A DNA stretch of 55,014 bases from an uncultured Gammaproteobacteria bacterium (lineage in GTDB: Bacteria; Pseudomonadota; Gammaproteobacteria; Nitrosococcales; Methylophagaceae): contig CAJQOM010000012.1 in NCBI GenBank assembly GCA_905479985.1, positions 1-55,014 on the forward strand, given 5' to 3'. Below, piece after piece: positions 31,816 to 48,128 of this stretch (positions are counted from its first letter, which is position 1; each line of letters opens with the position of its first letter). Below the pieces are notes generated by a model. The model was not told the origin of the DNA. It made no database searches and worked only from the letters and a program-made list of their open reading frames with translations. Position numbers and translations under genes: made by a program.

Positions 31816-32682
31816 ATGTTGAAACAGCTATTATCAAAATGGATTTTGATGTTGTTATTGTTAAGCCCCCAAGCGAGCTTTGCATTTTCACACTTTGGCC
31901 ATCAATTAATTTGTGCCACGGCGTATGAATTGACTGCACCGAAAACCAAAGTGTTTATCGATAAGTTAGTTAAGACGAAGGGTGTAGCCAAGGGCTATGA
32001 CTTTGTTAAAGGCTGTACTTGGCCCGATGTGGTGCGTAAGACCACGCATCGCGAGACCGATGAATACCATTATATGAATGTGCCCAAAGGGCTGGCTTTT
32101 AATCACCAGCGTGATTGTGCGGCTTATGATTGTGTGACCCAAGCGATTCAGCGTTATGCGTTAAATTTGGCTGATTCGGGTGTGAGTAGACGTAACCGGA
32201 AAGAAGCGTTGTTTTTCCTTGGGCATTTTGTAGCAGATTTACATCAACCATTGCATGTTGGATTTGGGGAAGATCGGGGCGGAAATACGATTAAGGTATT
32301 TCGCTCGGCTAAACACAAAAAGCCAGATATTAATTTACATGCTTTATGGGATAGAGATGTGCCGTATAAAGCAGGCTTAGGGCGGTCATCTTCGCAACGG
32401 GTTTTGCTTGAAAAGATTAGAAAGTACGATCGCAGTTCATGGCAAGGCTTTGATGTGATTGCTTGGGCACGGGCATCACATGAGATGGCAAAAGACGTTG
32501 CGTATGTGATGCCAGATGGTTCACCTGTAGTGAATAAAACACGGTTAACCGAAGCTTATTATCAGCGGGCAAGTCCGGTGATTGTTCAGCAGTTTATGAA
32601 AGCTTCGGTGCGCCTAGCTTATTTATTGGATAAGGCGGCGGCTAGTGAGATTGGGGTAGATAGTTTTCAATTGGATCAATAA
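31816..32682 (+). CDS. S1/P1-family zinc nuclease, exported
   Basis: The 288-residue protein has a signal peptide (residues 1-23, ...SPQASFA|FSHFGH). The mature enzyme keeps the zinc ligands of P1 nuclease: H6 (FGHQ), the TWPDVVR aspartate, YHYMNV histidine, FLGHFVADLHQPLHVGFGEDRGGN (H, D, H) and NLHALWDRD (H, D). P1-type enzymes use the N-terminal tryptophan as a zinc ligand through backbone atoms; here the predicted first residue is phenylalanine. The enzyme would degrade single-stranded DNA/RNA and 3'-nucleotides in the periplasm or outside. It is tightly linked to the second FKBP, perhaps as a folding helper. Confidence 0.9.
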   Translation: MLKQLLSKWILMLLLLSPQASFAFSHFGHQLICATAYELTAPKTKVFIDKLVKTKGVAKGYDFVKGCTWPDVVRKTTHRETDEYHYMNVPKGLAFNHQRDCAAYDCVTQAIQRYALNLADSGVSRRNRKEALFFLGHFVADLHQPLHVGFGEDRGGNTIKVFRSAKHKKPDINLHALWDRDVPYKAGLGRSSSQRVLLEKIRKYDRSSWQGFDVIAWARASHEMAKDVAYVMPDGSPVVNKTRLTEAYYQRASPVIVQQFMKASVRLAYLLDKAAASEIGVDSFQLDQ

Positions 32683-32745
32683 GTAAAAGCGTCTCTTGAT
32701 GCACGTAGGGTAAGTGATTAATCGGTTTGTAATGGCAGTTATAAA

Positions 32746-32779
32746 AAAAGCCGTAATGAAGTGAATCATTACGGCTTTT
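32746..32779. terminator. Terminator of the PEP-CTERM gene, shared with the nuclease gene
   Basis: AAAAGCCGTAATGA pairs with TCATTACGGCTTTT around a 6-nt loop, between convergent genes. The same stem and loop, with one change in the stem, recurs at 47912-47945 behind a PEP-CTERM gene remnant. Confidence 0.9.
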
Positions 32780-32804: not shown

Positions 32805-33395
32805 TTAGCTCTTGGTTTTACGTCTGAGCCCTAAGAAGCCTAATAAAGCAGGTGCGAATAAAAACAATGCCGCTGGCACTGGGACTTCAGAGACACCAGA
32901 GTTATAAGCTCTCCAGTTACTTATGCCACCGCCTCGAGTTGCACTGATATCGGAGATTGTAAATCCCGTTCCTGGTGTCACGAGTGATGCAAAATGGAAA
33001 AACACTTCAAATCCCCCAAAATGAACCGCTAGGTAGTCATAGGGAATAGTGCTGATTATTGTGTTAGAAGCACCGCTAATATTATCTTTAAATGTGCCCG
33101 ATAATGTTCCTTCATCAGCAAAGGTGTTAGCAGGAAGCATGAAAACGCTTTCGATTGCATCACCAATAACGTCGTAGCTTTGGTTGGAAATGGGTGCGCT
33201 TGGGTTGTCATCACCGGCAGCAATTTGGCTAACGGTTGGGCCAGAATAACTAAAAGTTAAGGTCTGACCGCTGTCGGGAGCTGTAAATGAGAATGGACTG
33301 GTGGGTGCGTTGTCGATTGGAAGAAAAGCCGCATTAGCGATGGGGCTCATTAAGAAGGTTGTCGCGATTGCGAGTGCAGTAAGATATTTTTTCAT
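32805..33395 (-). CDS. PEP-CTERM (VPxPA) sorted exported protein
   Basis: The 196-residue protein has a signal peptide (MKKYLTALAIATTFLMSPIANA) and a C-terminal exosortase-type sorting signal: VPVPAALFLFAPALLGFLG followed by LRRKTKS. The body is rich in Ser, Thr, Gly and beta-strand patterns (FSFTAPDSGQTLTFSYSG), without recognised catalytic motifs. Such proteins are cut by exosortase and are often exported with extracellular polysaccharide. No exosortase gene is in the window. A candidate c-di-GMP riboswitch lies just upstream, implying control together with biofilm genes. Confidence 0.9.
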   Translation of the reverse strand: MKKYLTALAIATTFLMSPIANAAFLPIDNAPTSPFSFTAPDSGQTLTFSYSGPTVSQIAAGDDNPSAPISNQSYDVIGDAIESVFMLPANTFADEGTLSGTFKDNISGASNTIISTIPYDYLAVHFGGFEVFFHFASLVTPGTGFTISDISATRGGGISNWRAYNSGVSEVPVPAALFLFAPALLGFLGLRRKTKS

Positions 33396-33419
33396 AACAT
33401 TTCCTCTAAGTTAGAAAAT

Positions 33420-33487
33420 GCAGCTCAGCCATCTTTAGAAGGTTAAAGACCCGTAGCTTTCCGTATTTGGCTCACACCAAGGTTGGC
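33420..33487 (-). ncRNA. Candidate cyclic-di-GMP (GEMM-I-like) riboswitch
   Basis: On the minus strand the leader of the PEP-CTERM gene contains a hairpin TTGG-TGTGAG-CCAA, then CGGAAAGCTACGGGTCTTT, a short loop and AAAGATGGCTGAGCTGC. This order (GNAAAGCnACGGGnC ... GAUGGCUGnGCUGC) resembles the GEMM-I c-di-GMP aptamer. The 3' end is 24 bases before the start codon and just upstream of the GAGGAAA ribosome site, so translational control is possible. Assignment is by eye, without a covariance model. Confidence 0.6.
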
Positions 33488-33691
33488 TTTTTTATTTTTA
33501 TATATTCCAAGTTAGTCCTACTAACTGAATATGATATTTATTATATTTTTAATTAATGACTTAGTCAATATAAGAGTTTTGTTAAAAACCCGCCAAATGG
33601 ATACTGATGAATAAAGTCAGTGAAAAGCTCAGCCACAAGGTAAAAGGTCTAGGTTCTATAGTGGGTTGATGTCTTCTGGTAGAATCAGGTC

Positions 33692-41167: not shown

Positions 41168-42016
41168 TCATTGGAGGAATTTCTTAAAGAAATCATCCAT
41201 ATCTTTAGGTACTGGCAAATCGGACGGGTTTGCCCAACTAAAAGCGGCAACGGTTGCAACATGTCCACCTGTTTCATAGATGATCGTCTCTACATCGCCA
41301 TTCGCCTTTTCTATACCAGCCTTAAGTGCCGCTAAGTTTCTAGGATAGACGGTGTCATCTTCGCCAGTGTATATCAATAGCATCGGTGGCTCATCGCCAT
41401 CGATAAAGTTAGTTACCACCATATTTGGAAAGTTGTCAGGCGGGCCGAAGATTTCTTTTATGTCAGCGGCTTTTGGCACAAAATCATAAGGACCAGCCAG
41501 ACCAGCAAAAGCATTTACAACATTAGGCTTGAGCTTGTGCGTTGCCAAATAAGCATTATCGGCAATAATCAATGCCCCTATATGTGCACCCGATGAATGA
41601 CCCGATATAAACAAATTCTGATTGCCTTTATAGTTGGCTATGTTTTTGTGAACCCAAGCAACTGACTTTGCTGCATCTTCTGCAAACGTCGGGAATTTTA
41701 CATCCGGATATAGGCGAGTATTGGGCAACACCACAACATAACCCATACTTGATAGTGTCGTACCTACAAATTTGTACTGATCTTTAGAGCCATCTATCCA
41801 GCGACCGCCATGAAAAAACACCACAACGGGAAACGTTTCTTGTTCAATATTGGGTACATAAATATCTAACTCTTGACGGGGGAGTTGACCATAAGGGACA
41901 TCTTTTGAAATTTGGCCGTCGTAGGTCAGCGTAGGCGCATTGACGACTGCAAACTGCAGAGGTGTGCAGGCAACAAGAAACGCCATAAGGAAGAGTATAG
42001 TTAGTGTTTTTTGCAT
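41168..42016 (-). CDS. Lipoprotein alpha/beta-hydrolase (esterase)
   Basis: The 282-residue protein has a lipoprotein signal (MQKTLTILFLMAFLVAC|T) and a carboxylesterase-like alpha/beta hydrolase fold: VVVFFHGGRWIDGS (oxyanion-hole HGG), nucleophile S in FISGHSSGAHIGA, the acid region LLIYTGEDDTVYP and histidine in YETGGHVATVAAF. It hydrolyses an ester of unknown kind at the cell envelope. A second, truncated copy of its 5' 300 bases with strong identity lies at 47437-47738. Confidence 0.9.
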   Translation of the reverse strand: MQKTLTILFLMAFLVACTPLQFAVVNAPTLTYDGQISKDVPYGQLPRQELDIYVPNIEQETFPVVVFFHGGRWIDGSKDQYKFVGTTLSSMGYVVVLPNTRLYPDVKFPTFAEDAAKSVAWVHKNIANYKGNQNLFISGHSSGAHIGALIIADNAYLATHKLKPNVVNAFAGLAGPYDFVPKAADIKEIFGPPDNFPNMVVTNFIDGDEPPMLLIYTGEDDTVYPRNLAALKAGIEKANGDVETIIYETGGHVATVAAFSWANPSDLPVPKDMDDFFKKFLQ

Positions 42017-42098
42017 GTAATAAATACGCTTTAAAATTTCAAATGGATAAGAATGTTTTTATGCTTTAGCCAAGCTTACCCCCTATATTGTGGTGCTT

Positions 42099-42450: not shown

Positions 42451-42604
42451 TATTTTTCCTTTCATAAAATAGTGCGTTTAAGCTTTTACTACATTGGTCG
42501 CCATTGACTGGCATAGTGAGATTAGGCGTTGTTAATGCCATTTTCATATACAAATCAAACTGGCTGATCCCTTTATTCTTGGTTTAATCAACTACACCTA
42601 CGTG

Positions 42605-43815: not shown

Positions 43816-44200
43816 AAAGTGCTCCTGTGAAATCTAACGATATGCTTGTGCCCTTGCGTTTGTTAAATACCTTATGTAATGGCGGTAAGCAATAATCGAC
43901 GGGCTTTTCTATTTATTAATTCAACCTATTTCACTATAACCCCAATTTCTACATGTTAATACGCAGGATAAAATAATCTAGGGAAACACGGCGAATAACC
44001 GACAGTCTATAATAGGTTGCGTGGTTAAAATGTGGCAGGTTCAATCTACTCCGCTTTTGGTCTGTTTTGTCCGATTGTTTGACAAATAAATTAACCATTT
44101 AAGATAGCATCAAGAATAAAGGCTATTCTTTAAGTATCTCGGGTATTATTGCCACTGGATCATTCTTCTGGCTCATCTTTTTCTGTAAGGCCTTTCGTCT
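43816..44200. other. Intergenic region with degenerate repeat
   Basis: The 385-base gap holds upstream regions of two divergent genes and a roughly 60-bp repeat (43931-43990) related to 46545-46603. No other coding signal was found. Confidence 0.5.
43931..43990 (+). repeat. Degenerate 60-bp repeat, copy 1
   Basis: It shares ACTATAACCC, GTTAATAC, TAAAA-AATCTAG and CACG blocks in the same order with 46545-46603, at about 75% identity. Confidence 0.5.
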
Positions 44201-46408: not shown

Positions 46409-46855
46409 AACTTTATCCCTAAAAATTAAATCAAGATTATTCCTAATAGCATGTTTAGCAATCTCCTCCGTTTATAAGACACATTTTTATGATAAAAGTT
46501 AGCGATAAACAAGACGTTTATTCTGTTTATTACGCCATCTTAGTTAACTATAACCCTATTTTTTGCAGGTTAATACAGGGGGTAAAAGAATCTAGAGGCC
46601 ACGATACCTTGAGAGACCAACTGCTTTGGGCCTGTTTCGGGCTTCTCGCTAAATTATCCCCATCACATCAGCTAATTCAGGGGTAATTTAAGACGGACCT
46701 CACTACTCTTTTTCTCACTATTTTGATTTCTATTTTTTAAAACAAGCTTTGCAAAACAGCTACATTAACGAGACAATTAAAAATTAATTGAACACATCAA
46801 CACGCTAACTCATTAAACGAGTTTATCTATAGCATCGTTTTAGCAAGGAAAAATC
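46409..46855. other. Intergenic region before DUF2058 gene
   Basis: The 447 bases contain a degenerate repeat copy (46545-46603). A 65-codon open frame (46489-46686) overlaps the repeat and has no family match or ribosome site, so I do not treat it as a gene. The rest is A+T-rich without visible structure. Confidence 0.5.
46545..46603 (+). repeat. Degenerate 60-bp repeat, copy 2
   Basis: It is the partner of 43931-43990 (about 75% identity, same block order), 2.6 kb away. Confidence 0.5.
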
Positions 46856-47401
46856 ATGGCAGGCTCATTACAAGATCAACTCAAAAAATCTGGTCTCGTC
46901 AGTAAGAAAAAGTCGCAACAATTAGATGTTGAAAAACGTAAAAAAATAAAGGCTAAAAATAAAGGCCTAAAGAGTAATAATGAGATTGCAGAAAAAGTAC
47001 AACAAGCTAAATTACAAAAAAAGCAAGATGACCAAAAACGAAATCAGCAGCAACAACAGCAAATAAAACAAAACGAAGAAAAAGCACGTATCAAGCAAAT
47101 TATTGACCAAGTGAAAATCAAAGACTATGACGGCGATACCGCTTTTAATTTTCAATTCAATAACAAAATTAAAACGCTGTATCTCAATAAAGAAAACTAC
47201 GATGCCTTAGTGGCAGGCAGTATTGGACTCTGTCAGGTCGATAACATCATCTTTATTGTGCCAAACGCAACGGTGAATAAAATCAAGTCGATTAACCCGG
47301 TGTACGTCGTATTACATCAAGACAAACTGAATACAACGCCAGAAACAGTAAGCGATGATCCCTATGCCGACTATGATATTCCCGATGATTTAATGTGGTG
47401 A
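46856..47401 (+). CDS. yaiL: DUF2058 family protein (YaiL-like)
   Basis: The 181-residue protein starts MAGSLQDQLKKSGLVSKKK and has a long charged coiled coil (residues 20-85, with a Gln-rich run RNQQQQQQIKQNEEKAR) and a C-terminal domain (DTAFNFQFNNKIKTLYLNKENYDALVAGSIGLCQVDNIIFIVP). This is the DUF2058/YaiL family, called nucleoprotein or polynucleotide-associated protein. A nucleic-acid-linked role is presumed. The coding region ends 36 bases before a truncated esterase copy on the opposite strand. Confidence 0.9.
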   Translation: MAGSLQDQLKKSGLVSKKKSQQLDVEKRKKIKAKNKGLKSNNEIAEKVQQAKLQKKQDDQKRNQQQQQQIKQNEEKARIKQIIDQVKIKDYDGDTAFNFQFNNKIKTLYLNKENYDALVAGSIGLCQVDNIIFIVPNATVNKIKSINPVYVVLHQDKLNTTPETVSDDPYADYDIPDDLMW

Positions 47402-47436
47402 TAACCCGAGGTTACAGTCGAGGTTTTTGACACTAA

Positions 47437-47738
47437 TATTTGATGGTGTCGTACCTACAAATTTGTACTGATCTTTAGAGCCATCTATCCAGCGACCGCC
47501 ATGAAAAAATACCACAACAGGAAACGTTTCTTGTTCAATATTGGGTACATAAATATCTAAATTTTGGCGCGGAAGTTGGCCATAAAGGACATCTTTTGAA
47601 ATCTGGCCGTCGTAGGTCAGCGTAGGCGCATTGACGACTGCAAACTGCAGAGGTGTGCAGGCAACAAGAAAGGCCATAAAGAAGAGTATAGTTAGTATTT
47701 TTTGCATGTGATAAATACGCTTTAAAATTTCAGATGGA
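47437..47738 (-). pseudogene. Truncated duplicate of the lipoprotein esterase
   Basis: About 300 bases match 41749-42048 at about 95%. They cover the upstream region, start codon, lipoprotein signal and the first 87 codons to the ...YKFVGTT segment, then the match stops. The catalytic serine, acid and histidine are lost, so the product cannot be an enzyme, although the signal peptide and start remain open (47707 down to an unrelated stop at 47390). High identity points to a recent event. Confidence 0.9.
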
Positions 47739-47774
47739 TTCAGATTTCCACCAATTTGATAATACCTATATTGA

Positions 47775-47885
47775 TGTTTTCTTGCCCCATCAGCCGTCCC
47801 GGTACCGGCCGTACTACTTATGTTTGCTTCAGCACTCTTCGGCTTTATGGGCTGCAGTCGTAGCGCTAAAAACTTAGCGACTTAA
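47775..47885 (+). pseudogene. Remnant of a PEP-CTERM protein gene (3' end)
   Basis: Reading in frame to the TAA at 47883-47885 gives a tail, VPVPAVLLMFASALFGFMG, followed by CSRSAKNLAT. This is the VPxPA/hydrophobic helix/basic layout of an exosortase sorting signal. An in-frame TGA at 47772-47774 cuts it off and no body domain is found upstream. A terminator nearly identical to that of the intact PEP-CTERM gene follows 26 bases after the stop, matching the spacing there. Confidence 0.75.
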
Positions 47886-47911
47886 GTAACAGCACAGCAA
47901 AATAAAACATC

Positions 47912-47945
47912 AAGCCGTAGTGATTCAGTTCATTACGGCTTTTTT
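47912..47945 (+). terminator. Terminator homologous to the PEP-CTERM gene terminator
   Basis: AAGCCGTAGTGA pairs with TCATTACGGCTT (one G-U) around TTCAGT, followed by T residues. Stem and loop match the terminator of the gene at 32805-33395 except for one or two bases. Confidence 0.85.
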
Positions 47946-48128
47946 GAAAATATCAAAGGGTCAGCCAGTTTATTTTTAGGTAGATTATAGCCATTCTACT
48001 CTGAAAGTGACGTTCTGGTTTTTGGCTATCTGCTTTAAGTCGTTAGCTGTTTCAGGGCAGTATGATATCCATGCAAAAGTTAGGTTGATTGATTTGATTT
48101 CTGTTAATAATGGTGGGTAAATCCAGCA

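Follow-up and report, generated by a model that had tools for sequence, protein, structure and literature searches.

The PEP-CTERM-type tail at positions 47790-47885 of the window, i.e. of the whole 55,014-base contig C12 of a 2.2-Mb genome in 46 contigs (hereafter the own genome, G000), is an ordinary gene relic. In the reading that we prefer (probability ~0.7), it is the 3′ end of a decayed gene, and its terminator is shared with an intact PEP-CTERM gene of the same window through linked, inherited 3′ ends that are occasionally exchanged between unrelated bodies. Of an exosortase substrate gene, the remnant would retain the final 38 nt of body and the tail, followed after a 26-nt spacer by an intrinsic terminator. 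PEP-CTERM genes of the family would carry a few types of 3′ end, each inherited as a linked set of tail codons, spacer and terminator, and the terminators of the remnant and of the intact gene would match because this small set has been inherited in the family.

Results

The remnant still carries the end of its body

The locus lies on the plus strand. It starts with the 3′ end of a lost PEP-CTERM body (47740-47777; SDFHQFDNTYIDV), followed by the body-tail junction (47778-47789), by the tail with its stop codon (47790-47885; reading SAVPVPAVLLMFASALFGFMGCSRSAKNLAT, with an in-frame stop a little upstream) and, 26 nt after the stop codon as the first-pass annotation had stated, by a hairpin with a T-run (47912-47945; hairpin at 47912-47941, with a 12-bp stem and loop TTCAGT, from the fold). 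The tail displays the VPxPA-like motif, hydrophobic helix and basic cluster (SRSAK, degenerate) of PEP-CTERM signals and scores E 1e-10 with a subtype tail profile in a search of the own genome. This profile recovers both the remnant and the intact gene of the window, unlike Pfam PF07589, which listed neither of them in an own-genome search up to E 10 and was dropped from the census of PEP tails as too insensitive. The own genome encodes an exosortase (PF09721 at G000:C24:78713, 221.9 bits, E 7.5e-66). A functional gene would have a signal peptide and a body in frame with the tail; the remnant has only a 36-aa open frame, and an excess of 11 nt at the body-tail junction, compared with its relatives in genomes G006 and G008, puts its body end out of frame with the tail.

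The 38-nt body end is 87% identical to the G006 relative and 79% to the G008 relative. Compared with 96 PEP 3′ ends, it scores 28 and 22 with these two and 12 with the next best (mean 6.7, sd 3.6), and a 36-nt match to the G006:C10 gene reaches 88.9% identity (E 4e-8 over 663 kb of loci, many of which are PEP genes). Both relatives belong to one body family, which a protein search finds in only two of 57 genomes; in the DNA comparison of their loci with the window, made for synteny, the remnant alone is matched. Since 38 nt of the original body are still attached to the tail, the remnant is, as judged from its sequence, a truncated PEP-CTERM gene and not a bare transplanted tail. The first-pass annotation had proposed that tail and terminator moved alone, with the protein body lost, and this proposal is not supported. 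The attached body argues against the arrival of a bare tail-terminator module at a site without a body, and casual inspection showed no mobile element or target-site duplication. We regard such an arrival as very improbable, even with three observations that would fit it: a PEP tail is absent beside phoA in five other genomes, AAACTGGCTGACCCTTTGAT adjoins the hairpin and recurs with three mismatches at 42557, and a second near-bodiless tail with a terminator stands at G000:C39:29587. As to the first of these, phoA was found in six of 29 genus genomes, the own included; the flanks examined in the other five carry no PEP tail (5/5), and these five genomes give no DNA match to the window left of 48129.

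The break of the truncated gene coincides with the edge of a duplication. A 304-bp segment (47436-47739, minus strand), comprising the 5′ part of a BD-FAE-type esterase (~90 codons plus upstream sequence), is 94% identical to 41745-42048 (minus strand), where the other copy forms the 5′ part of a 282-aa ORF (41168-42016) and its upstream region. The duplicate at 47436-47739 spans part of a truncated 105-aa ORF (47390-47707; Pfam BD-FAE residues 50-83) and its upstream sequence. The body end of the remnant starts at 47740, the base directly after this duplicate, so that the remnant is cut on its 5′ side exactly at the right edge of the esterase duplicate; the duplication event probably removed the PEP-CTERM body.

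Other short features were observed. The sequence AAACTGGCTGACCCTTTGAT next to the terminator (47952-47971) has its 3-mismatch copy at 42557-42576, near the other esterase copy, and is possibly part of a dispersed repeat. A 75-nt direct repeat, 76% identical, occupies 43907-43981 and 46521-46595 of the window. Elsewhere in the own genome, the short PEP-type tail with terminator at G000:C39:29587-29676 (L110) has almost no open body upstream and is probably another relic.

The remnant and the intact gene end in matching hairpins

The intact PEP-CTERM gene (32805-33395, minus strand; 196 aa, tail SEVPVPAALFLFAPALLGFLGLRRKTKS, recognized by the subtype tail profile) is followed by the matching terminator at 32744-32777, minus strand, which lies 27 nt after the stop codon; a hairpin had indeed been reported there (hairpin at 32746-32779, ~25 bases after the gene). 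When each is read in the direction of its PEP-CTERM gene, the hairpins agree at 32 of 34 positions. The match had been said to include the loop, which holds for five of its six bases (TTCAGT in the remnant, TTCACT in the intact gene). The remnant and intact-gene hairpins fold into stems of 12 pairs (-18.0 kcal/mol, z -6.9) and 14 pairs (-19.8 kcal/mol, z -9.1), respectively, and none of 200 shuffles was equally stable for either; the stem at 47912 holds one G-U pair. The remnant hairpin, a stable GC-containing stem followed by a T-run, is predicted from its fold to be an intrinsic terminator. The list of a generic terminator scan did not contain it, because the scan required a run of five T behind the stem, and some of the T-run here pairs within the stem. 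Note that the intact-gene hairpin also lies 63-65 nt past the convergent S1/P1 nuclease gene (31816-32682), so that it has a gene on either side.

The hairpin is strongly associated with the 3′ ends of PEP-CTERM genes

The own genome contains three copies of the hairpin with a loop-specific or gapped pattern (two with a stricter pattern) and none in the reversed control, which excludes chance. The first-pass annotation had called for a search of the genome for the hairpin after other PEP-CTERM genes, and all three copies do sit 24-27 nt after PEP-CTERM tails, i.e. those of the intact gene, of the remnant and of a choice-of-anchor-C-like PEP-CTERM gene at C16:93116. The tail profile finds 11 PEP-type tails in this genome at E up to 1, three of them with the hairpin; the others are followed by hairpins of another kind or lack a nearby one. 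The C11 gene has a GCCGTGA-type hairpin in its vicinity, but 378 nt from its stop, and this hairpin was left out of the count.

Over 57 genomes of the family, an asymmetric-loop pattern with up to three mismatches gives 31 hairpin places and none in the reversed control. Twenty-three adjoin PEP-CTERM tails (22 on the stated strand and G006:C25:64309 on the other), and eight stand by an MscS-like channel (3), a DUF4440-like secreted protein (3), a tRNA (1) or in an unassigned context (1), the first two being names read from translations and not from a search. The objection that would count against a PEP-CTERM link, that the hairpin be common after unrelated genes, thus applies weakly, to these 8 of 31. 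Of the 12 hairpins that the gapped pattern locates in four genomes, 10 are adjacent to a PEP tail (P 5e-22, assuming 55 tails among ~10,400 genes). A GTDB scan returned 26 stretches with 28 hairpin matches, 17 of which follow PEP tails; by their titles, the stretches belong to Methylophaga (13), unnamed or higher-rank proteobacteria (9) and other genera (4), and in these last four, labelled Acinetobacter, Agrobacterium, Pseudobutyrivibrio and Eubacterium, the hairpin occurs without a PEP tail. Overall, the hairpin shows a strong link to the 3′ ends of PEP-CTERM genes.

The copies of the same hairpin beside MscS-like, DUF4440-like and tRNA genes include those of loci L055, L058, L060, L061 and L065, the first two contexts recurring between species.

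In Neisseria, DNA uptake sequences are 12-mers, an inverted pair of which forms terminators. The 12-mer here is likewise paired as a terminator; unlike the uptake sequences, it is not scattered singly over the window, where its three exact matches all lie inside the two hairpins, and a DNA uptake sequence reading was rejected on these counts. An integron gene cassette, also considered, would have an attC with core sites and an integrase; the hairpin here carries a T-run and keeps a near-fixed distance from a stop codon.

PEP-CTERM genes with unrelated bodies share 3′ ends

Sharing of 3′ ends was measured on 96 PEP tail records (one gene twice) falling into 31 body clusters (phmmer), taken from 80 stretches and from own-genome loci; the choice of stretches, made among the matches listed, favored high scores and tail-rich genomes, so that class frequencies among these PEP genes are biased, and tails with the hairpin had served to build the tail profile (A2). 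For the correlation and codon tests, 76 of the 96 records were kept (body ≥100 aa, tail ≥26 aa, with terminator). Body relatedness was assessed by phmmer, and the tail-terminator test, unlike the 3′ UTR sharing test, also required different clusters. An apparent body-unrelated pair in G054 (L169/L172) turned out to be one gene seen in two loci; it was rejected and is removed by the body, tail and terminator filter.

A shared 3′ UTR (E<1e-4) is found in 46 of 95 body-related pairs, in 24 of 200 body-unrelated pairs of the same genome and in 172 of 1772 body-unrelated pairs of different genomes, while pairs whose bodies are neither clearly related nor clearly unrelated (783 of 2850) were left out of the comparison. 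The background is given by 178 non-PEP genes from loci not chosen by the hairpin, which share a 3′ UTR with PEP genes in 29 of 13528 pairs; they replaced an earlier control of 171 genes (12/171 matching PEP 3′ UTRs), taken mostly from hairpin-chosen loci. Restricted to the non-PEP genes with a terminator (14/178), the background is 19/1064. Compared with 24/200, this corresponds to a ~7-fold excess of PEP-PEP sharing without body likeness among genes with terminators (Fisher P 9e-10, treating pairs as independent, which pairs are not). The non-coding likeness of body-unrelated PEP genes thus exceeds the non-PEP background.

Could the hairpin simply be a favorite terminator of the family, arising by convergence or as a small mobile hairpin, and linked to PEP-CTERM genes because these, as single-gene units, depend on a strong terminator? 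Terminator-like hairpins do follow 85 of the 96 PEP tails (within 110 nt; one of the genes is included twice) vs 14 of the 178 other genes (within 95 nt), and the eight copies by MscS-like, DUF4440-like, tRNA or other contexts fit such a preference. So does the use of other stems, GCCACC or GGGAGC, by other PEP terminators. What a favored stem would leave aside is that loop and flanks are common too, that PEP-PEP sharing is ~7 times PEP-other sharing among genes with a terminator, and that at least four of the sharing non-PEP genes (L019, L117, L211 and L242) are convergent neighbors that share the hairpin belonging to the PEP gene. We therefore consider a mere favorite terminator unlikely.

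Tail and terminator vary together. In 175 body-unrelated pairs of the same genome, tail similarity correlates with terminator similarity (r 0.348; permuted mean 0.067, 1 of 5000 permutations); the correlation between genomes is weak (r 0.149, 133/5000). At identical tail residues, codon identity is 0.475 within a genome and 0.441 between genomes, for 0.445 expected. Recent exchange would raise synonymous identity well above the codon-usage expectation, and the value of 0.475 vs 0.445 is barely raised, which indicates that DNA-level sharing is weak and that any exchange is old or rare; recent gene conversion as a general cause was rejected on these grounds. The suggestion that PEP-CTERM genes are shuffled as 3′ modules thus survives in part: unrelated bodies share tail and terminator, and the codon identity speaks against frequent recent copying.

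The higher sharing among body-related pairs (46/95 vs 24/200) points to inheritance with the body as the main cause, and this is the role that it would have in the mechanism proposed here. In the other 49 of 95 body-related pairs no 3′ UTR match was found; related bodies are thus often followed by different terminators, which must also be replaced independently of the body. Whole-gene duplication followed by fast body divergence from a few ancestors, with a conserved 3′ end, would need no exchange at all. The frequent 3′ UTR sharing of body-related pairs and the weak codon sharing both fit it, and Haft et al (2006; PMC1569441) infer paralogous expansion, duplication and loss of fast-evolving PEP-CTERM proteins. 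It accounts less easily for one hairpin class on different domain families, namely TSP_C and choice-of-anchor I in the single genome G006 (both above Pfam cut-offs) and, in the own genome, a choice-of-anchor-C-like body (E 1e-16, below its cut-off), or for a gene (L194, below) that joins the body and leader of one family to the 3′ end of another. Divergence without any exchange is in our view possible and somewhat doubtful. That 3′ modules are common to unrelated bodies is moderately supported by these data.

Two candidate recombinants

The tail, spacer and hairpin of the remnant resemble most those of a choice-of-anchor-C-like gene in G009, which has the highest score of the 96 (79, for a mean of 39 and 44 for the G006 relative). 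A maximum-descent test restricted to the tail and 3′ region places a break near 47822 (p 0.016). The whole-length test gives p 5e-5, the floor of the test, as expected since the remnant body has no homologue in the other parent. With the G008 relative (L147), the break falls at 47775, ahead of the tail. The terminator stem of the G006 and G008 relatives, GCCATAATG vs GCCGTAATG, differs by one compensated pair, so that the 3′ end of the remnant could be orthologous and merely less diverged.

The second candidate, L194 of G001, belongs by its body and 5′ leader to the L192 family (identity 0.81 on the 5′ side, vs 0.68 to L181) and combines them with the C-terminus, spacer, terminator and flank of L181 and L136, with UTR matches at E 4e-13 and 2e-10 and body matches at E 3.7 and 3.2, respectively. 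Its break lies near tail codon 20, with p 0.0024, 0.0016 and 0.16 in three triplets; note that the recombinant triplets were picked after seeing the data. The remnant and L194 are candidate recombinants, suggestive of exchange and no proof of it. From such candidate breakpoints we infer that 3′ ends would occasionally pass between unrelated bodies, the conserved tail codons being the probable site of homologous recombination, and would give a new body a working sorting signal and a transcription stop at once. This step, from sharing to active module exchange, is moderately supported.

c-di-GMP-I riboswitches lie at the 5′ ends of many PEP-CTERM genes

Rfam places a c-di-GMP-I riboswitch upstream of the intact PEP-CTERM gene (aptamer at 33416-33497, minus strand; 47.4 bits for a gathering threshold of 35), 20 nt before its start codon. 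At least 53 c-di-GMP-I sites are present in six genomes (G000, G006, G008, G010, G036 and G054), 52 of the 53 preceding PEP-type genes whose bodies are unrelated; these counts are lower bounds, up to 150 candidates having been scored per genome. Among 30 riboswitch loci that were read, 29 lead into a PEP gene: 26 by the tail pattern, L220 by eye, L223 through a 1125-aa frame and L244 through L250. Four further sites lie in fetched stretches (L246, L248, L249 and L247), and 19 were assigned by position relative to known tails, four of which were re-examined (L076, L251, L252 and L253). The PEP tail pattern missed L220 and L247, so both were read by eye. Conversely, a riboswitch is present in 50 of the 80 PEP records with enough upstream sequence.

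At one of these loci (L251, G054:C3:460100-461100), the PEP-CTERM gene behind the riboswitch has an in-frame stop in its body. An orphan riboswitch at G000:C16:41925-42012 (L226) leads into a terminator-like hairpin and precedes no PEP-type gene.

In two leaders that were folded, a hairpin beside the aptamer covers the probable ribosome-binding region, which suggests that translation may be the controlled step. The leader hairpin of the window (33376-33500, minus strand) stands between aptamer and start codon, has like sequences in L112, L120 and L122, and may mask the ribosome-binding site.

A link between this riboswitch and PEP-CTERM genes is partly known already: Table 4 of a 2025 paper on Methylophaga nitratireducenticrescens GP59 lists four of seven c-di-GMP riboswitches as adjoining PEP-CTERM or VPLPA-CTERM genes (PMC12530212). 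Compared with that table, the sites reported here number 52 of at least 53 in six genomes, precede unrelated bodies and have a leader hairpin in the two cases folded.

Discussion

The genes described here resemble the PEP-CTERM/exosortase (EpsH) system of Haft et al (2006; PMC1569441) in their VPxPA-type motif, membrane helix and basic end, in their mostly unrelated bodies and in their organization as single-gene units. Haft et al called the tail a module and inferred a rapid, lineage-specific paralogous expansion. In the sections of that paper drawn on here, the shared regulatory element is an upstream sigma-54 motif, and neither a common terminator at the 3′ end nor breakpoints within the tail are described; our search of the open-licence literature found no description of a shared terminator and tail breakpoints of PEP-CTERM genes. 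VPLPA-CTERM (TIGR03370) belongs to the same tail class and has matches over its cut-off in 21 of the 57 genomes of the family; the C5 gene is its single match in the own genome, where it misses the three hairpin-linked tails.

Tentatively, and at slightly less than even odds, the PEP-CTERM genes of Methylophagaceae could be pictured as a combinatorial surface-protein repertoire, in which many genes have a riboswitch and a start-site hairpin on the 5′ side and a tail-terminator on the 3′ side, with unrelated bodies joined by recombination in the tail codons. The remnant, the near-bodiless tail at C39:29587 and the C16:41925 orphan riboswitch would then be debris of its turnover.

These results touch on the question of how so many unrelated proteins gain one short sorting tail. 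The terminator is useful as a tracer here because it is non-coding and free of the protein constraint that confounds comparisons of tails. A tail that has its own terminator and recombines within its own codons would make of a new body a sorted transcription unit in one step. Together with the c-di-GMP riboswitches, a biofilm signal appears to control a large and fast-changing set of surface proteins in these methylotrophs.
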